Shown here: positions 8,752 to 63,369 of the stretch, piece after piece | Numbering within the stretch: the first letter of the stretch is position 1 | How the letters are laid out: each line of letters begins with the position of its first letter | Source of the DNA: Hansschlegelia beijingensis | Lineage (GTDB): Bacteria; Pseudomonadota; Alphaproteobacteria; Rhizobiales; Methylopilaceae | Assembly: GCF_014196425.1 (NCBI RefSeq) | Contig: NZ_JACIDR010000003.1 | Span: 434,001 to 498,000, forward strand | Reading direction: 5' to 3' | DNA length: 64,000 bases | Translations under genes and position numbers: made by a program | The notes under the pieces: model-generated | The model's database searches: none | What the model was told of the DNA's origin: nothing | Seen by the model: the letters and a program-made list of their open reading frames with translations, nothing else

Positions 8752-10470
8752 ATGGTCAAGATCTCGAGGCAGCAATACTCCGACCTTTACGGCCCGACGA
8801 CCGGCGACAAGGTGCGGCTCGCCGACACCGATCTCTACATCGAGATCGAGAAGGATCTGCGCGTCTATGGCGAGGAGGCCGTCTATGGCGGCGGCAAGAC
8901 GCTGCGCGACGGAATGGGCTTCGACAACGAACTCACCAGCGCGGCCGGCGCGCCCGATCTCATCATCACCAATGTCACCGTGCTCGACGCCATCCAGGGC
9001 GTCGTCAAGGCCGATGTCGGGGTCAAGAACGGGCTGATCTGCGGCATCGGCAAGGCCGGCAACCCGTCCATCATGTCCGGCGTGACCCCGGGTCTTGCGC
9101 TCGGACCGGGGACCGACGCCATCTCGGGCGAGCACCTCATCCTCACCGCGGGCGGCATCGACGCGCATGTCCACTACATCTCGCCGCAGCAGGGGCTGGC
9201 GGCCCTGTCCAACGGCGTGACCACGCTGTTCGGCGGCGGCATCGGACCGAGCGACGGCACCAACGGCACCACCATCACTCCGGGCACCTGGAACATCGAG
9301 ATGATGCTCCGCTCGTTCGACGCCTGGCCCATCAACGCCGGCGTGCTCGGCAAGGGGAACGGCTCGGCGCCGGTTCCGCTGAAGGAGCAGCTCCGCGCCG
9401 GGGCGGCGGGCTTCAAGATTCATGAGGACTGGGGGTCGACCCCGGCCGCGATCCGCAACGCGCTCACCGTGGCGGACGCTTACGACGTTCAGGTCTGCAT
9501 CCACACGGACACGCTGAACGAGTCCGGCTTCGTCGAGAACACGATCGCGGCCTTCGAGGGCCGCACGATCCACACCTACCACACGGAGGGCGCCGGGGGC
9601 GGCCACGCCCCGGACATCATCCGCGTCGCCTCGCTCTCGAACGTCATACCGAGCTCGACCAATCCGACGCTGCCCTACGGCGTCAACTCGCAGGCCGAAT
9701 TGTTCGACATGACGATGATCTGTCACAATCTCAGCCCGAAGATCCCCACCGACGTCGCCTTCGCGGAAAGCCGCGTCCGCCCCGAGACCATCGCCGCGGA
9801 GAACGTGCTCCACGACCTCGGGGCGATCTCGATCCTGTCCAGCGACAGCCAGGCCATGGGGCGCGTCGGCGAGAACTGGGCGCGCGCCACCCAGACCGCG
9901 GATCTGATGAAGCAGCGCCGGGGCGCCTACAAGGGCGACAACTCGGGCAATGACAACGAACGCGTCCTGCGCTTCGTCGCCAAGATCACCATCAATCCCG
10001 CCATCGCACAGGGCGTGTCTCACGTCATCGGCTCGGTCGAGGTCGGCAAGATGGCGGACCTCGTGCTTTGGGAGCCGGCGTTCTTCGGCGCGAAGCCGAA
10101 GATGGTCATCAAGGGCGGCATGATCTCCTGGGCCCTGATGGGCGACCCGAACGCGTCACTGCCGACGCCCCAGCCGGTGATGTACCGGCCGATGTTCGGC
10201 GCCCAGGGCTCGGCGCTGACGAAAACCCGGGCGACCTTCACCTCGCACGCCGCCCTGGAGGACGGCATCGTGGAGCGTTACGAGCTGAAGTCTCAGGTCG
10301 TGCCGGTCTATCGCACGCGGACGATCACGAAGACCTCGATGGTGCGCAACACCGCGATGCCGGTCATCGAGGTCAATCCGGAGACGTTCGCCGTCACGGT
10401 CGATGGCGTTCACGCCACGATCGAGCCGGCGACCCGTCTCCCGCTCGCCCAGCTCTACTTCTTCAGCTGA
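8752..10470 (+). CDS. ureC: Urease subunit alpha (catalytic)
   Basis: A 572-residue Ni-dependent amidohydrolase that hydrolyses urea to ammonia and carbamate. Metal and active-site motifs are present: [14 protein letters not shown] (two Ni-binding His), [12 protein letters not shown] (carbamylated Lys bridging both Ni), [28 protein letters not shown], and [12 protein letters not shown] with the last ligand Asp. The mobile flap reads [11 protein letters not shown] where most ureases have CHHL: the flap Cys and the catalytic His next to it are kept, and the following His is Asn. The rest of the flap region is also divergent ([13 protein letters not shown]). Full length, so presumably active. 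Confidence 0.93.
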
Positions 10471-53705: not shown

Positions 53706-54497
53706 ATGCCGGATGGCATTGTCGACGCGCGCCACGCCGGCGCCAGGGAGCTCACGCCGCCGCCCGCGCAGCCGGACGGCTTTCCGGACAGGCTCGCGCT
53801 GTTTCTCGACCTCGACGGCACGGTTCTCGATCTCGCGCCGACGCCGGACGCCGTGTGGATCGCGCCCGAGACGGTGGCGGCGATCGACCGGCTCGCGGAG
53901 CGGCTGGGCGGCGCGCTCGCGGTGATCACCGGCCGGGCGCTCGACGACGCCGACCAGATCCTGGCGCCACTGCGGCTTCCGACCGCCGCGCTGCACGGCG
54001 CGGAGCTGCGCCGGAGCGGCGGCAGCCGCGTGGCGGCGGCCGGCGAGCCGCCCTCCGAGCGGCTGAGGGCCGCGCTGACGGCCTTCGCGGACGCCCGTCC
54101 GGGCCTGATGCTCGAAGACAAGGGCCAGAGCGTCGCGCTGCATTACCGGGCGGTCCCGGAGCTCGAGGACGAGGTGCGGGCGCGCGTCTCCGAACTCGTC
54201 GCCCAGTTCGCGCCGGACCACGAGCTTCAGCCCGGCAAGATGGTCGTGGAGATCCGCCCGCATGGCTGCGACAAGGGCGGCGCGGTGCGCGCGCTGATGA
54301 GCGAGCCGCCTTTCGCGGGCAGGATCCCGCTGGTTCTGGGCGACGACCTCACCGACGAGTTCGCCTTCGAGGCCGCCGTCGGCCTCGGCGGCGGCGCGAT
54401 CCTGATCGGCGCCGCCGATCGCCCCACCGCGGCCGCGCACGTCCTGCGCGATCCGGAGGCGGCGCGCCGCTGGCTGGCCGAGCTCGCCCGCGCCTGA
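53706..54497 (+). CDS. otsB: Trehalose-6-phosphate phosphatase
   Basis: A 263-residue HAD-family phosphatase: LALFLDLDGTVLDLAPTPDAV (nucleophile Asp) near residue 30, ITGRALDDADQIL, ALHGAELR, the cap, and GDDLTDEFAFEAA near the C-terminus. It removes phosphate from trehalose-6-phosphate. No otsA lies nearby, so the partner must be elsewhere. The 88-nt upstream spacer shows no clear motif. Confidence 0.87.
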   Translation: MPDGIVDARHAGARELTPPPAQPDGFPDRLALFLDLDGTVLDLAPTPDAVWIAPETVAAIDRLAERLGGALAVITGRALDDADQILAPLRLPTAALHGAELRRSGGSRVAAAGEPPSERLRAALTAFADARPGLMLEDKGQSVALHYRAVPELEDEVRARVSELVAQFAPDHELQPGKMVVEIRPHGCDKGGAVRALMSEPPFAGRIPLVLGDDLTDEFAFEAAVGLGGGAILIGAADRPTAAAHVLRDPEAARRWLAELARA

Positions 54498-54523: not shown

Positions 54524-54595
54524 CCTTTGCTCAATCCTTAGGCGCCGCGTGGGCGACGGCCCGCGCGTGACCGCTACGGCGCGCCCGAGGCGGGG

Positions 54596-54612
54596 CTGGC
54601 ATGGCGCTTGCT
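54596..54612 (+). promoter_or_regulatory. Sigma-54 (RpoN) promoter of the guanidine-type ABC operon
   Basis: ctggcatggcgcttgct matches the -24/-12 consensus (YTGGCACG-N4-TTGCW) at all but one position, with the invariant GG (54598-54599) and GC (54610-54611) exactly 10 nt apart. Transcription would start near 54622, just ahead of the riboswitch aptamer, so the promoter-riboswitch spacing also fits. Confidence 0.8.
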
Positions 54613-54627
54613 CGATCATGATCGTGC

Positions 54628-54732
54628 AGAGCGTCTAGGGTTCCGGCCGTCATAGCGGCGGCGCTGGTCCGAGAGACGCACTTTCCGCGGCCTCAGAGCG
54701 GGAAGACACGGCGGGGCAAAAGCCCGGGAGGT
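54628..54732 (+). ncRNA. Guanidine-I (ykkC) riboswitch
   Basis: The three conserved blocks of the guanidine-I class occur in order: ctagggttccg (54635-54645), ctggtccgagag (54664-54675) and acacggcggggcaaaag (54706-54722), followed by cccgggag. The variable stem between the last two is GC-rich. Directly downstream, ggaggtc (54727-54733), part of the aptamer 3' end, can pair with gacctcc (54760-54766) around an inner ggttcgc/gcgaacc hairpin (54742-54759), giving a competing structure as in transcriptional or translational switches. It precedes the ABC solute-binding gene by about 100 nt. Confidence 0.92.
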
Positions 54733-54829
54733 CACTGCACGGGTTCGCCGCCGCGAACCGACCTCCACGCTTGCGGCGAACTCCCCTGGAAACGACGCGG
54801 CCGAGACGCCGCACGACCGAGGAGCAGCC

Positions 54830-55937: not shown

Positions 55938-55981
55938 GACGACTTCCCCGCGTCATCCCGCGCGGCTTTGATGAGGTGTGT

Positions 55982-56803
55982 ATGCGTCGCGCGATGAATG
56001 TCCGTCCGGGCGCGGGGGCCCGGCTCCTGCTCGCCCTGCTGCCCTTCGCGCTGCTCGCGGCCGTCTATGTCCTGGGCTCGGCCGAGCGGCGCGCCGCGAA
56101 CCCGAACGACAAGCTGCTGCCGCCGATCTCCGAGATGGCCGCCACGGTGGGGCGCCTGGCCACCGAGCAGGACCGCCGCACCGGCGAGATCACCATGGTG
56201 GCCGACACCGCCTCGAGCCTCCGACGGCTCGCGATCGGGCTCGGATGCGCGACCCTGATCGGCCTGACGCTCGGCGTCGCGATCGGCGCGCTGCCGGTGG
56301 TCACGGCCGCCGGCGGCCCGCTGGTCGCCGTCATATCCATGATCCCGCCGATGGCGGTGCTGCCGATCCTGTTCATCGTCTTCGGGCTCGGCGAACTGTC
56401 GAAGGTGGTGCTCATCATCGTGGGCGTCGCGCCGCCGATCGTGCGCGACGTCACGCTCGCCGTGCAGGCGATCCCGAGCGAGCAGCTCGTGAAGGCCCAG
56501 ACGCTCGGCGCCTCGAGCTGGACGGCGGTGCTCAGGGTGGTGCTGCCGCAGATCACGCCGCGGCTCATCGAGACCGTCCGGCTGCAGCTCGGCCCGGCCT
56601 TCCTGTTCCTGATCGCCGCCGAGGCGATCGCCTCGGATTCCGGCCTCGGCTACCGGATCTTCCTGGTGCGCCGCTACCTCGCGATGGACGTCATCCTGCC
56701 TTACGTGGCCTGGATCACGCTGATCGCCTTCGTGATGGACTTCGGGCTCGCGCGGCTGGCGCGCTCGGCCTTTCCCTGGGCCTATGCGGAAGAGCGGCGA
56801 TGA
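55982..56803 (+). CDS. ABC permease of the guanidine-type importer
   Basis: 273 residues with six expected helices in a BPD_transp_1 fold. The EAA coupling loop reads LVKAQTLGASSWTAVLRVVLPQITPRLIETVRLQLG. An extended periplasmic N-terminal loop (PNDKLLPPISEMAATVGRLATEQDRRTGEITMVADT) is characteristic of the urea-carboxylase-region permeases. ATG at 55982 has tgagg 6 nt upstream; GTG at 55976 is the alternative. The stop overlaps the ATPase start. Confidence 0.82.
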   Translation: MRRAMNVRPGAGARLLLALLPFALLAAVYVLGSAERRAANPNDKLLPPISEMAATVGRLATEQDRRTGEITMVADTASSLRRLAIGLGCATLIGLTLGVAIGALPVVTAAGGPLVAVISMIPPMAVLPILFIVFGLGELSKVVLIIVGVAPPIVRDVTLAVQAIPSEQLVKAQTLGASSWTAVLRVVLPQITPRLIETVRLQLGPAFLFLIAAEAIASDSGLGYRIFLVRRYLAMDVILPYVAWITLIAFVMDFGLARLARSAFPWAYAEERR

Positions 56804-57597
56804 GCGCGATCACGGTCGAGAACGTCTGGGTCGAGTATGGCGACCAGATCGTGCTCGAGAACCTCAATCTCGAGGTCGCGTCCGGCGCCTTCCTGGCGAT
56901 CGTCGGCCCCTCAGGCTGCGGCAAGAGCACCTTCCTGCGCATGGTTCTGGGGCAGGAGCGGCCGACCCGCGGCCGGATGCTGATCGACGGCGAGCCGCTT
57001 CCCGACGAGCCGGGGCCTGATCGCGGGGTCGTGTTCCAGCGCTATTCGGTGTTCCCGCACCTCACGGTCCTGGGGAACGTGCTGCTCGCCTACGAGCTCG
57101 GCAGATCCCGGGTCTTCGGCCGCCTGTTCGGGGCGGCGCGGCGCGAGGCGCGCGACAAGGCGGAGGCGCTGATCGCGCGGGTCGGGCTCTCCGCCCATCG
57201 CGACAAGCATCCGAGCGCGCTTTCGGGCGGCATGCAGCAGCGCCTCGCGATCGCGCAGGCGCTGGCCAAGAACCCGAAGGTCCTGCTGCTCGACGAGCCG
57301 TTCGGCGCGCTCGATCCCGGCACCCGGGCGCAGATGCACGCACTGATCAAGCCGCTGTGGGCGAAGCTCGGCATGACGGTCGTCATGGTGACGCACGACC
57401 TCAAGGAGGCCTTCAGCCTCGGCACCCGCGTGATCGCCTTCGACAAGGTGCGGCACGATCCCCAGGCGCCCGGGCGCTACGGCGCGCGCGTCACCTACGA
57501 TCTCGATCTGACCCGCGAGGGGCCGGTGCCGGTGCTGGGCGCCGTCAAGCCCGACATCGGGGCGCCGTGGAGCGTCCGCGTCGTGGCGGCGGGCTAG
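56800..57597 (+). CDS. ABC ATPase of the guanidine-type importer
   Basis: 265 residues: Walker A GPSGCGKST near residue 36, Q-loop VFQRYSVFPHLTV, signature LSGGMQQRL, Walker B LLLDEPFGALD, switch His THD. The C-terminal extension (VRHDPQAPGRYGARVTYDLDLTREG...) is typical of this subfamily and of the NitT/TauT group. It ends 4 nt inside the convergent MocR gene. Confidence 0.85.
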   Translation: MSAITVENVWVEYGDQIVLENLNLEVASGAFLAIVGPSGCGKSTFLRMVLGQERPTRGRMLIDGEPLPDEPGPDRGVVFQRYSVFPHLTVLGNVLLAYELGRSRVFGRLFGAARREARDKAEALIARVGLSAHRDKHPSALSGGMQQRLAIAQALAKNPKVLLLDEPFGALDPGTRAQMHALIKPLWAKLGMTVVMVTHDLKEAFSLGTRVIAFDKVRHDPQAPGRYGARVTYDLDLTREGPVPVLGAVKPDIGAPWSVRVVAAG

Positions 57598-59179: not shown

Positions 59180-59196
59180 CTGGCACGTCGTTTGCT
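59180..59196 (+). promoter_or_regulatory. Sigma-54 (RpoN) promoter of the Nit1C-type cluster
   Basis: ctggcacgtcgtttgct is a full match to the -24/-12 consensus (YTGGCACG-N4-TTGCW), GG at 59182-59183 and GC at 59194-59195 with 10-nt spacing. The predicted start near 59207 is 38 nt before the first ATG, whose ribosome binding site is ggagga. Confidence 0.88.
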
Positions 59197-59244: not shown

Positions 59245-59727
59245 ATGCCAGCCGTGACCAAGGCCGCCCATAAGAAGGGCGATTTCTTCGTCGACTACGA
59301 GGACAAGAAGTTCGAGGACGTGAAGGCGCTGCCGGGCGAGAAGGCGCTCGTCACCTTCCACACCGTCGCGTTCGAGGGCTCGATCGGCCTGGTCAACCTG
59401 CTGCAGGCCACGCGGCTGCTGCGCAAGGGCTTCGAGACCTCGGTGCTGCTCTACGGCCCCGGCGTGACGCTCGGCGTGCAGCGCGGCTTCCCGACGCTCG
59501 GCGACGAGGCCTTTCCGGGCCACCTGAACTTCAACAACCAGATCACCAAGTTCATGAGCGAAGGCGGCAAGGTCTACGCCTGCCGGTTCGCGCTGCAGGC
59601 GCTCTACGGCCATGGCGAGCCCTCGCTGATCGAGGGCATCACGCCGATCAGCCCGCTCGACGTGCTCGACCTCGTGCTTCTCCACCGGCGCGACAACGCC
59701 TTCATCCTGGACAGCTGGACGCTCTGA
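59245..59727 (+). CDS. Sll0783/MSMEG_0572-family nitrogen-starvation-response protein
   Basis: 160 residues. The family core [41 protein letters not shown], then [16 protein letters not shown] and [29 protein letters not shown]. The pattern suggests a DsrE-like small alpha/beta fold. The family is known only from nitrilase (Nit1C-type) clusters, and cyanobacterial Sll0783 is induced by nitrogen starvation. Biochemical role unknown. ggagga precedes the ATG. Confidence 0.85.
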
Positions 59728-59755
59728 GCGTCCGCGGCGCGCCGGGGAGGCGGGC

Positions 59756-60811
59756 ATGGCGGAGAAGCGCATCGTACGGGCCGCGGCGGTCCAGATCGCG
59801 CCGGACCTCGAACAGCCCGGCGGCACGCTCGATCGCGTGCTGGCGGCGCTCGCCGAGGCGGCCGGCAAGGGGGCGGAGTTCGTCGTCTTCCCCGAGACCT
59901 TCGTGCCCTGGTACCCGTATTTCTCCTTCGTGCGCCCGCCGGTCGCGATCGGGGCCGAGCATCTGCGGCTCTATGACGAGGCGCCGGTCGTGCCCGGCCC
60001 CGTCACGGACGCGGTCTCGGCCGCGGCGCGCCGGCACGGCGCGGTGGTCGTGCTCGGCGTCAACGAGCGCGACCACGGCTCGCTCTACAACGCCCAGCTG
60101 ATCTTCGACGCCGACGGCGCGCTGAAGCTCAAGCGCCGCAAGATCACGCCGACCTATCACGAGCGGATGATCTGGGGGCAGGGCGACGGCGCCGGCCTCA
60201 GGGTCGTGGACACGAGGGTCGGCCGGGTCGGCGCGCTGGCCTGCTGGGAGCACTACAACCCGCTCGCCCGCTACGCCCTGATGGCGCAGCACGAGGAGAT
60301 CCACGCCGCGCAGTTTCCGGGCTCGATGGTCGGGCCGATCTTCGCCGACCAGATGGAGGTGACGATCCGTCACCACGCGCTCGAGAGCGCCTGCTTCGTG
60401 GTCAACGCCACCGGCTGGCTGACCGACGAGCAGCGCGCCGCGATCTCGCCCGACGAGGGCCTGCGCAAGGCGCTCACCGGCGGTTGCATGACCGCGATCG
60501 TGTCGCCCGAAGGCGCGCATCTGGCCCCGCCGCTGACCGCCGGCGAGGGGATCCTGATCGCCGATCTCGACCTCGCGCTCGTCACCAAGCGCAAGCGGAT
60601 GATGGATTCGGTCGGCCATTACGCCCGCCCCGAACTGCTCAGCGTGACGCTCGACGACCGGCCGCAGGCGCCGGTGCGCCGCCCGCATTCCTCACCCGCA
60701 TCCGGGAGGACGCACGATGAAGCCGATGCCCCCCAAGGCTCCGATCCCGGTGAGGACGGAGGAGCTGATCAACGCGTTGCAGTCCTCAGGAGTGCGGCTG
60801 GTCGACCCTAG
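59756..60811 (+). CDS. Nit6803-type nitrilase of the Nit1C cluster
   Basis: 351 residues. Catalytic triad of nitrilases: Glu in [16 protein letters not shown], Lys in [22 protein letters not shown], and Cys in [17 protein letters not shown]. This is the nitrilase1 type of Sll0784 (Nit6803), with broad activity on aliphatic and aromatic nitriles in vitro; the in vivo substrate is uncertain. The reading frame runs 95 nt into the next gene, so the last roughly 32 residues are out-of-frame overlap and lack conservation. A frameshift near the end, or a truly long overlap, would explain this. Confidence 0.85.
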
Positions 60812-61850
60812 CGCGGGGGCGGACAGCCGCCGCGGCGGCGCCGGACCTTCGGACCACAAGGCGATCACCATCGACGGCATGACCGTGATGGCGCCGGTCC
60901 ACACCGCGCCGGCCTTCGACAGCCCCTATCTGGTCGAGAAGCCGGACGCCTTCGGGCGCTCCCGGCTGACGCGCGACGGCAAGGTCATCGCCGACGTGTC
61001 GTTCCCGCTCCGGCCGCGCTTCTACGAGCTCAGCACCGCCGACGGCGTCGAATACTGGAAGATCGCGACCCTGCACGGCCGCGACGTGCTGGCGACGACC
61101 GTGCTGCAGAGCTGCGTGCGCTACCAGAGCCGCGCCAAGACCTGCCAGTTTTGCGCGATCGGCGAGTCGCTCGCCGCCGGCCGCACCGTGGAGCGCAAGA
61201 CCCCGGCGCAGCTCGCCGAGGTGGCTGAGGCCGCGGTGCGGCTCGACGGCGTGCGGCACATGGTGATGACCACCGGCACTCCGCCCGGCAAGGACCGCGG
61301 CGCGGCCATTCTGGCCGAGAGCGCCGCGGCCGTGAGGGCGGCGGTCGACCTGCCGATCCAGGCGCAGTGCGAGCCGCCGAACGACGACGCCTGGTTCGGA
61401 CGCCTCAGGGAGGCCGGCGTGGACGCGCTCGGCATGCATCTCGAGGCGGTCACGCCCGAGGTGCGGGCCCGGATCATGCCCGGCAAGGCGCAGGTCTCGC
61501 TCGAACGCTATGACGCCGCCTTCGCGGCGGCCGTGCCGGTGTTCGGGCGCGGGCAGGTCTCGACCTACATCCTCGCGGGCCTCGGCGACGCCCCGGAGGC
61601 GATCCTGGCGACCTGCGAGCGGCTGATCGGGCTCGGCGTCTATCCCTTCGTGGTGCCGTTCGTCCCGATCTCCGGCACGCCGCTCGAGCGTCACCCGACG
61701 CCCTCGGCCGACTTCATGGACGCCATCCTGCGGCCGCTCGCCCGGATGCTGGTCGCGGGCGGCCTGAAGGCCACGGACGTCAAGGCCGGCTGCGCCAAAT
61801 GCGGCGCCTGCTCGGCGCTCTCCACCTATGAAAGGGCGCTGGCGTCATGA
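60717..61850 (+). CDS. MSMEG_0568-family radical SAM protein
   Basis: 377 residues. The N-terminal cluster motif is [14 protein letters not shown] near residues 129-142, a C-x9-C-x2-C pattern rather than the canonical C-x3-C-x2-C. A barrel follows with [37 protein letters not shown] and [15 protein letters not shown]. The C-terminus holds [10 protein letters not shown], possibly an auxiliary Fe-S site. Found only in Nit1C-type clusters. Reaction unknown. Overlaps the nitrilase frame by 95 nt and the next gene by 4 nt. Confidence 0.85.
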
Positions 61851-62389
61851 TCTTCGAGCCCGTCCGCCCCTTCGTGCCCGGCGGCTACCAGATCAAGTGG
61901 GCGACCGATCCGTGGGAGGTCGCCGGCGCGATGGCGCTGCGGCGCGACGTGTTCTGCGCCGAGCAGGGGCTGTTCGACGCCTCCGACCGCGACGCGATCG
62001 ACGACGTCGCGACGCCGATCGTGGCGCTGTCGTCCTTCGTGGTCGCGACCGACGCGGTGGTCGGCACGGTGCGCATCCACGAGGAGGCGCCGGGGGTCTG
62101 GTGGGGCTCCCGGCTCGCAGTCGCGCAGTCGCACCGGCGGGTCGGCGCGCTCGGCGCCTCGCTGATCCGGCTTGCGGTGTCGTCCGCGCACGCCCGCGGC
62201 TGCACGCGCTTCCTCGCCCATGTGCAGGCGCAGAACGGCCCGCTGTTCCGCCGCCTGCGGTGGCGGACGCTGGAGGAGATCGAGCTGCGCGGCCACCCGC
62301 ATCTCAAGATGGAGGCGGACCTCGCCTTCTATCCCCCCTTCGAGACGCCGCAGATCGGCTTCCTGGCGCTGACCCGGCGGGCCGCCTGA
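61847..62389 (+). CDS. MSMEG_0567-family GNAT acetyltransferase
   Basis: 180 residues with a GNAT fold: [26 protein letters not shown], and the acyl-CoA loop region [31 protein letters not shown]. Typical of Nit1C-type clusters (MSMEG_0567 / Sll0786 kind). Acceptor unknown. Start ATGA overlaps the radical SAM stop, and its stop shares a base with the next ATG (TGATG), so the block is translationally coupled. Confidence 0.82.
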
Positions 62390-63369
62390 TGATCCCCGAA
62401 GGCGCGCTCGAGCGGATCGCGGAGCGGCTGCGGGGCAGCCGGGCCTTCGCGGCCAAGGCCGACATCGCCGCGACCGCGGCGCGGCTCGGGCTCGACGGCG
62501 CCTCCGCCATTCCGGTCGGCGACGACTGCGCCGCGATCCCCGACGGCGAGGGCTTCCTGCTGCTCGCCCAGGAGGGCTTTCTGGACGCCTTCGTCGACCA
62601 GGACCCCTGGTTCGCGGGCTGGTGCGGCGTGATGGTCAACGTCTCGGACGTCGCCGCCATGGGCGGCCGGCCGATCGCGGTGGTTGACGCGCTGTGGGCC
62701 GACGGCGACGCCTCGGCCGCCCCGGTGCTGGACGGGCTGCGGGCGGCCTCGGAGCGTTTCGGCGTGCCGGTGGTGGGCGGCCACGCGAATCTCTCCTCGG
62801 ACGCGCGCCGGCTTTCGGTCGCGATCCTTGGCCGCGCCCGGCGCCTTCTCACGAGTTTCGACGCGGCCCCGGGGGACCGGCTGGTCGCCGCGATCGACCT
62901 GCGTGGGCGCTACCGCGAACCGTTCTCGAACTGGGAGGCCGCGACCGCGGCGCCCGCGCCGCGGCTGCGCGGCGATCTGGAGCTGCTGCCCGAGATCGCC
63001 GAGGCGGGGCTTTCGCGGGCCGCCAAGGACGTCAGCCAAGCGGGCGTTGTGGGCACCGCCGCGATGCTCGCGGAGTGTTCAGGGGTCGGGGTCGAGATCG
63101 ATCTCGACGCGCTGCCGAAGCCGGAAGGCGCGAAGCTCGAGCGGTGGCTGCTGAGCTTTCCGAGCTTCGGCTATCTGCTCGCGGTGCGGCCGCCGGACGT
63201 CGCGGCCGTGACGGCGCGCTTCCATGCGCGCGGGATCGCGGCCGCCGATTGCGGCCAGATCAGCGAGGGCGGGCTGGTCTCCGTCGCGTCAGGCGGGGCG
63301 CGCGCCACGGTCTGGGATCTCGCTCAAAAACCTCTGATCGGCTGCGCGCCGCGGCGGGTGACGGCATGA
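62389..63369 (+). CDS. AIR-synthase-like (PurM-fold) protein of the Nit1C cluster, Sll0787 family
   Basis: 326 residues with a PurM/AIR synthase fold: AIPVGDDCAAIPDGEGFLLLAQEGF, VMVNVSDVAAMGGRPIAVVDALW, VPVVGGHANLSSD and SRAAKDVSQAGVVGTAAML. Members bind ATP and phosphorylate carbonyl or amide oxygen or act in selenophosphate-like chemistry; the substrate here is unknown. Part of the coupled Nit1C-type operon. The Asp-rich metal and ATP residues are kept. Confidence 0.85.
   Translation: MIPEGALERIAERLRGSRAFAAKADIAATAARLGLDGASAIPVGDDCAAIPDGEGFLLLAQEGFLDAFVDQDPWFAGWCGVMVNVSDVAAMGGRPIAVVDALWADGDASAAPVLDGLRAASERFGVPVVGGHANLSSDARRLSVAILGRARRLLTSFDAAPGDRLVAAIDLRGRYREPFSNWEAATAAPAPRLRGDLELLPEIAEAGLSRAAKDVSQAGVVGTAAMLAECSGVGVEIDLDALPKPEGAKLERWLLSFPSFGYLLAVRPPDVAAVTARFHARGIAAADCGQISEGGLVSVASGGARATVWDLAQKPLIGCAPRRVTA

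Follow-up and report, generated by a model that had tools for sequence, protein, structure and literature searches.

Given that a guanidine-sensing RNA and a nitrogen-type promoter appear side by side ahead of an importer operon in Hansschlegelia beijingensis, we asked whether both elements are real and whether they could make one operon answer both to nitrogen status and to guanidine. The window, i.e., the whole 64-kb stretch of DNA that was analysed, contains the features collected in Table 1. The original prediction had placed a ykkC aptamer at 54628-54732 and had named a covariance-model search as its check; Rfam scores this RNA as Guanidine-I, above the family cut-off, with a 5' end four bases longer than claimed. 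The aptamer ends 97 bases ahead of the start codon of the TIGR03427 protein, in a 5' leader position, and the importer operon foreseen downstream is borne out by matches for a substrate-binding protein, a permease and an ATPase. The TIGR03427 family name reads 'putative urea ABC transporter', and the context (the riboswitch and a carboxylase operon elsewhere in the genome) points to guanidine as the substrate. The permease has TauC as its best NCBIfam match, below the TauC cut-off. By importer protein, the closest named records among the matches listed are Methylopila jiangsuensis, a Methylopila MAG and Chelatococcus sambhunathii.

Table 1. Features of the importer locus and of the neighbouring Nit1C cluster (positions in the window)
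Feature	Position	Strand	Details
NtrC-like site TGCTCAATCCTTAGGCG (TGC-N11-GCG), putative	54528..54544		P-II-promoter matrix; centred near -87 relative to the predicted +1
-24/-12 (sigma-54) promoter TGGCATGGCGCTTGCT, predicted	54597..54612	+	near-consensus; conserved in its own genus and widely in the phylum samples
Transcription start (+1), predicted	54623	+	from the standard -12 placement of the GC
Guanidine-I (ykkC) riboswitch aptamer	54624..54732	+	cmscan RF00442, 86.4 bits, E 4.7e-14, cut-off 63
Hairpin A, possible expression platform	54726..54766	+	GGAGGUC (54727-54733) with GACCUCC (54760-54766)
Competing hairpin B	54741..54783	+	GGGUUCGCCGC (54741-54751) with GCGGCGAACUC (54773-54783); in the minimum-energy fold
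Importer substrate-binding protein, TIGR03427	54830..55888	+	546.5 bits, cut-off 333.9
ABC permease	55976..56803	+	PF00528, 70.4 bits, cut-off 26.4; start codon as in the ORF list
ABC ATPase	56800..57597	+	PF00005, 122.1 bits, cut-off 25
Nit1C cluster	59245-63369		MSMEG_0572, Nit6803-type nitrilase, radical SAM, GNAT, AIR synthase-like

Upstream of the aptamer, a near-consensus -24/-12 promoter had been claimed at 54596-54612, and such a box is indeed present one base further in. TGGCATGGCGCTTGCT differs by one mismatch from TGGCACGNNNNTTGCW in a consensus comparison and has the sigma-54 layout, i.e., GG at -24, GC at -12 and the correct spacing, near TGGCAC-N5-TTGC. Taking the C of TTGC (54611) as -12, we infer a start one base ahead of the start of the covariance model and seven ahead of P1 (54630), so that the earlier placing of it, about 6 nt before the aptamer, is correct to within a base or two for this sequence-predicted +1. 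A loose consensus search of the window (at most two mismatches) returned 5 matches against 8.45 expected, fewer than in the window's shuffles, and taken alone is not beyond chance. With a weighted sigma-54 matrix, just 6 sites in the 64 kb reached a score of 10, and TGGCATGGCGCTTGCT was the second best of these (18.4), behind a site at 59181 (19.0). The matrix frequencies came from general knowledge, and their consensus agrees with TGGCAC-N5-7-TTGCT, the sigma-54 consensus stated in the available part of PMC12316311.

We then assessed how general the pairing of box and aptamer is, using every Guanidine-I match in 289 class, 18 family and 398 phylum genomes (96 distinct aptamers after removal of repeats and of L023, which lies at a contig end) and counting as a box any sigma-54 score of at least 10 within 130 bases upstream of the aptamer. 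A box preceded 74 of the 96 aptamers, as against 1/96 on the antisense strand and 74/1920 in dinucleotide shuffles, and position-shuffled matrices yielded boxes at 1.5/96 on average and at most 15. When the threshold was raised to 14, 67/96 were boxed versus 0/96 antisense and 15/1920 shuffles. Boxes were found at 73/89 aptamers above the Rfam cut-off and at 1/7 below it. Among those above it, importer-first leaders were boxed in 32/39 alphaproteobacterial cases and 28/30 cases from other classes, and the leaders that are not importer-first in 4/10 and 9/10, respectively. For a second set, loci were selected solely on their importer protein (80 named loci, ranking highest among at least 532 relatives): 73 of these loci had the aptamer core, 66 of the 73 had a box (62 at score 13), and a box occurred in 1 of the 7 loci without an aptamer. 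The seven loci of this set with an aptamer but no box were L202, L204, L205, L229, L235, L237 and L253. Fifteen loci of the set were given to Rfam, of which the 13 with the motif core passed and the 2 without it failed. As loci share descent and the two sets partly overlap, none of these locus counts represent independent events. In the sampled Pseudomonadota the predicted pairing is common, and it is the usual case for importer-first Guanidine-I leaders, a point new to this analysis.

Conservation at closer range revealed the same box as a footprint. Across nine genus members (L033, a near-copy of L032, was excluded, and L035, which has no box, was not in the set), mean column identity was 0.94 in TGGCAYG, 1.00 in TTGCT and 0.69 in the four bases between, against 0.44-0.56 in the flanks; the aptamer start reached 0.97. 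The distance from box to CTAGGG was likewise constrained, ranging from 15 to 24 in the 37 boxed alphaproteobacterial cases with a single exception of 28 (L022, whose aptamer is below cut-off); smaller printed distances (12 in L015, and those of two aptamers in L094) are anchor artefacts. A distance of 15 would make the opening base of P1 the +1, and the 22 of the window would place +1 seven bases ahead of P1. In the other classes the distance was about 44 to 94, and in the importer-chosen set (best 80 of at least 532) it was at most 25 in 59/66 boxed loci. The split is not strictly one of class, since the short-distance loci include gammaproteobacteria (Solimonas, Steroidobacter and MAGs). These distances add a further new point, namely that in alphaproteobacteria the expected start abuts the aptamer. 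By the comparative evidence of the aptamer sets, the importer-chosen set and the genus footprint, the predicted box is far beyond chance, and both box and aptamer are real as judged by score and by conservation.

A sigma-54 promoter calls for RpoN and an enhancer-binding protein, and the genome encodes rpoN (430.3 bits, cut-off 277.35) along with seven strong Sigma54_activat matches, one of which is a full NtrC (720.9 bits, cut-off 558.6) with GAFTGA present. NtrC sites were scanned for with a matrix whose training set, chosen to avoid circularity, was 22 promoters of P-II genes from beyond the window's own family; with equal starts, this learning scored 122 versus 27 to 33 in shuffles. The matrix picked out TGCTCAATCCTTAGGCG, 69 bases upstream of the box, with a score of 8.1, the 4th best position in the 64 kb; 1/200 resampled upstream sequences did as well (p 0.005), and the site is single, weak for its kind and ends in GCG. 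At p<0.05 versus resampled sequence, the same matrix found sites at 26/37 boxed alphaproteobacterial aptamers versus 4/19 unboxed ones, and the 11/37 boxed loci where no NtrC-like site reached that level include five of the window's genus (L029, L031, L032, L033, L036). Rhizobium etli CIAT 652 and R. tropici CIAT 899 show the order seen in the window, with an NtrC-like site first, then a box and then the aptamer. A de novo search upstream of the boxes returned two palindromic motifs: for alphaproteobacteria TGCcnAaanttTngGCA, and for other classes cGCaCcannntgGtGCg, whose CGCACC-N5-GGTGCG type we take to be that of NtrC sites. The two motifs scored 145 and 147 versus 21 to 27 in shuffles, a contrast that is only indicative because the single-base shuffles had fewer starts and iterations. 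In Sinorhizobium, the NtrC motif is given as TGC-N11-GCA with an A/T-rich middle (available part of PMC10746234). The putative site of this kind in the window sits at a distance similar to that of the P-II genes of the same genomes. The enterobacterial NtrC core is TGCAC-N7-GTGCA, and a scan with it was weak in alphaproteobacteria.

The presence of these factors was compared with that of the box. RpoN was above cut-off in 36 of the 40 genomes checked, and the four failing ones, all of family f24, comprise two with no match (G521, G492), one with a fragment (G616) and one with two full-length matches (G659; 275.1 and 225.5 bits against 277.35); no box was found in any of them. A full NtrC occurred in 20/25 genomes, with a box in 13 of these 20 and in none of the five without it (G124, G391, G521, G616, G659), counts to which we attach no probability since the genomes were hand-picked. 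The absent NtrC of G124 may be a gap, as its assembly is a draft of 410 contigs at 93% completeness. Seven genomes have a full NtrC but no box: G266, G169 and G042 belong to one family, with the permease gene first and another common upstream sequence; in G346 the match to rpoN runs across two frames; in G305 the aptamer precedes an arginase-family gene; in G298 just a breakdown-type aptamer was found; and the seventh is G642. The upstream sites, and the lack of a box in the five hand-picked genomes without a full NtrC, make NtrC the likely activator, acting at a putative site that the original prediction had not named.

Of note, three loci of family f44 (L010, L014, L016) have permease-first importer operons without a -24 element and share an upstream sequence around TTTGCTGTAATTG(T/C)ATACAG; rpoN and a full NtrC are present there.

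The 3.66-Mb genome holds one further Guanidine-I aptamer, which precedes a DUF1989 / UAAP1 protein (TIGR03425, 252.7 bits against 205.95) and a second similar gene, both of which we take to be carboxyguanidine deiminases; the same operon includes a guanidine/urea carboxylase (TIGR02712, 1826.2 bits as a joined match, cut-off 1303.85). Import and breakdown are thus divided between two operons, and an aptamer heads each of them. Ahead of the breakdown-operon aptamer we found no box (best score 1.2), and the same was true of the breakdown-first aptamers of three other genus members (L030, L037 and L039; best scores 7.3, 1.5 and 6.1). In the sister genus (L112-L114), a box is present at both the import and the breakdown operons. 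This genome keeps its breakdown operon outside the predicted sigma-54 gate, with only the importer boxed, and aptamers without a box, in this genome as in its genus, show that other promoters also serve the aptamer.

Downstream of the sensor, hairpin A overlaps the aptamer's 3' end, its second arm following 26 bases after the first. GGGUUCGCCGC, which lies inside hairpin A, can pair instead with GCGGCGAACUC beyond it, making A and B mutually exclusive. The arms of hairpin A are identical in 10/10 aligned genus leaders; those of B, judged by eye in the 10 genus leaders, vary one-sidedly with pairing mostly kept, a pair being apparently lost in L029 and in L036. Because the arms of A are invariant and the changes in B one-sided, covariation says little here. 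As for how such a switch might act, the leaders examined contained no sequence complementary to the aptamer's GGGAG with a run of Ts behind it, as an intrinsic terminator would have, and no U-tract follows the hairpins. Masking of the Shine-Dalgarno sequence by one hairpin was unsupported, its modelled exposure in folding being nearly equal (0.29 with A and 0.34 with B). Our guess would be Rho-dependent or translational control at this possible platform.

Taken together, these elements probably make 54528-54732 a two-input control region, NtrC/sigma-54 first and guanidine second. Under nitrogen limitation, phosphorylated NtrC would bind the upstream site and activate sigma-54 RNA polymerase at the box, with transcription starting at about 54623. 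The Guanidine-I aptamer would be the first thing transcribed, and guanidine binding would permit expression of the substrate-binding protein, the permease and the ATPase. With an NtrC/sigma-54 start and a guanidine-bound aptamer both required, the importer would reach full expression only under nitrogen shortage with guanidine available. Such AND switching is probable because a nitrogen-type promoter adjoins a guanidine-sensing RNA and because this pairing recurs in most related loci examined; the dual-control logic first proposed for the locus is probably right.

Several other readings were weighed against this one. That the box is a chance match, leaving the riboswitch alone in control, might be argued from the loose consensus with its deficit relative to the shuffles, yet the 74/96 versus 1/96 antisense, the 66/73 in the importer-chosen set and the genus footprint make this highly improbable. 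We regard as equally improbable that the conserved stretch is an additional RNA or protein-binding element of the riboswitch and no promoter at all: its near-fixed distance to the aptamer in alphaproteobacteria would fit such an element, whereas the wider spacing in other classes, a sequence that is that of sigma-54 promoters, the NtrC-type sites upstream and its absence from the four f24 genomes, in which rpoN is missing, fragmentary or sub-cut-off, all speak against it.

More weight is due to readings that accept the sigma-54 promoter and alter what surrounds it. The activator could be another enhancer-binding protein, for which the genome offers six other strong candidates, and the 11 boxed loci lacking an NtrC-like site would be accounted for; we nevertheless think this unlikely, as the motif learned de novo outside the alphaproteobacteria has the NtrC form, the P-II-derived matrix finds sites, the five genomes without a full NtrC have no box, and an ntrC mutant shows the dependence described below (available part of PMC5491218). 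Somewhat less unlikely, although still a minority reading, is that the riboswitch receives additional transcription, from a sigma-70 promoter or by read-through from an otsB-like gene (53706-54497), and that the gate is therefore not a strict AND. The otsB-like gene shares the strand of the box, its end being some 100 bases ahead of it, and the genome's second aptamer, being unboxed, must have another promoter. Against this, a box set right at the beginning of the aptamer and better preserved than its flanks suggests that the main start is here. We therefore retain the NtrC/sigma-54 and guanidine gate as the favoured reading.

How does this locus compare with known systems? Like other Guanidine-I (RF00442) systems, it has an above-cut-off aptamer, a TIGR03427-type importer downstream and a carboxylase operon with its own aptamer; what sets it apart is a predicted sigma-54-type promoter directly adjoining the aptamer. 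Riboswitch control of guanidine import/carboxylase operons is known (PMC12186494, PMC12508155), and the available text of these papers names no sigma factor or NtrC ('sigma' 0 and 'ntrc' 0 occurrences, respectively). In Vreelandella, a riboswitch operon was expressed more highly on guanidine than on ammonium, a comparison in which both inputs change at once (available part of PMC12508155). With NtrC/sigma-54 scavenging promoters (P-II genes, glutamine synthetase, urea and nitrate transport) the locus shares the -24/-12 box and a nitrogen-source operon, and differs from them in that an RNA test for the substrate directly follows the expected start.

Previous studies appear to have met these operons from the promoter side. 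The available part of PMC12316311 lists 102 COG3665 genes predicted to be sigma-54-regulated in alpha-, beta- and gammaproteobacteria, 59% of them annotated 'urea carboxylase'; these are probably the same operons, and in that text 'guanidin' occurs 0 times and 'riboswitch' once, in the reference list. In a Burkholderia cenocepacia H111 ntrC mutant, 'urea carboxylase' stands at log2 -6.0 in the NtrC table, where the 'urea carboxylase-related ABC transporter' is entered as 'na(m)' (available part of PMC5491218, with 0 occurrences of 'guanidin'). These genes, I35_7282-7286, form an ntrC-dependent carboxylase and importer operon that resembles the present genes by annotation. In the literature searched, seen partly as available text, we found no paper that pairs a guanidine riboswitch with sigma-54/NtrC; the core guanidine papers may hold an earlier mention.

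On a broader scale, we consider it somewhat more likely than not that import and carboxylase Guanidine-I switches of Pseudomonadota stand as a rule on NtrC/sigma-54 promoters, forming a standard nitrogen-AND-guanidine gate, that promoter type separates nutrient-type switches from others, and that alphaproteobacterial RNAs begin at P1 or at most about 10 bases before it. With such a start, the sensor would be the first RNA that the sigma-54 polymerase makes, and the idea of a riboswitch that acts immediately upon sigma-54 initiation could be put to the test here. For some bacteria guanidine is described as a source of nitrogen, for others as a cause of stress (available part of PMC12186494), and a conserved nitrogen-starvation-type promoter ahead of the sensor suggests that these cells take it up as a nitrogen source. 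Guanidine switches could then be sorted by purpose according to their promoters; none of the small number of leaders ahead of EamA-transporter or arginase-family genes had a box.

The EamA group comprises five loci (L021, L043, L045, L100, L101) in which sub-cut-off Guanidine-I-like aptamers precede EamA transporters (PF00892 above cut-off in 5/5); these may represent a variant that differs in ligand or role. In L035 and L076, above-cut-off aptamers without a sigma-54 box precede arginase-family genes (PF00491), which we would guess encode guanidinase, and L035 retains a strong NtrC-like site (19.3) along with an apparent decayed box.

The best-scoring site of the window, a perfect -24/-12 box (19.0) at 59181-59196, begins 64 bases ahead of the Nit1C cluster. 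Across 41 genomes, 14 above-cut-off MSMEG_0572 genes, the window's included, have a box of at least 12.9 starting 67-75 bases upstream, and one sub-cut-off MSMEG_0572 match (L199) has none. We rejected the idea that the Nit1C cluster belongs to the same module: among 12 relatives with both a Guanidine-I aptamer and MSMEG_0572, the two lie on different contigs in 9 and share a contig, more than 1 Mb apart, in 3.

Other regulatory RNAs were encountered as well. On the Rhizobium etli CIAT 652 plasmid pC, a Guanidine-II aptamer (L280 5615-5664; 40.6 bits, cut-off 32) lies in the corresponding operon, within the 3'-terminal part of the gene annotated as the ATPase and just ahead of the next gene. 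A gammaproteobacterial MAG contig carries two divergent Guanidine-I aptamers within ~700 bases (L214 611-753 on the minus strand and 1131-1316 on the plus strand), and L094 holds a similar divergent pair. Lastly, Rfam reports a 5_ureB_sRNA match on the minus strand of the window (8907-9198; 45.2 bits, cut-off 40), perhaps merely urease-gene sequence.
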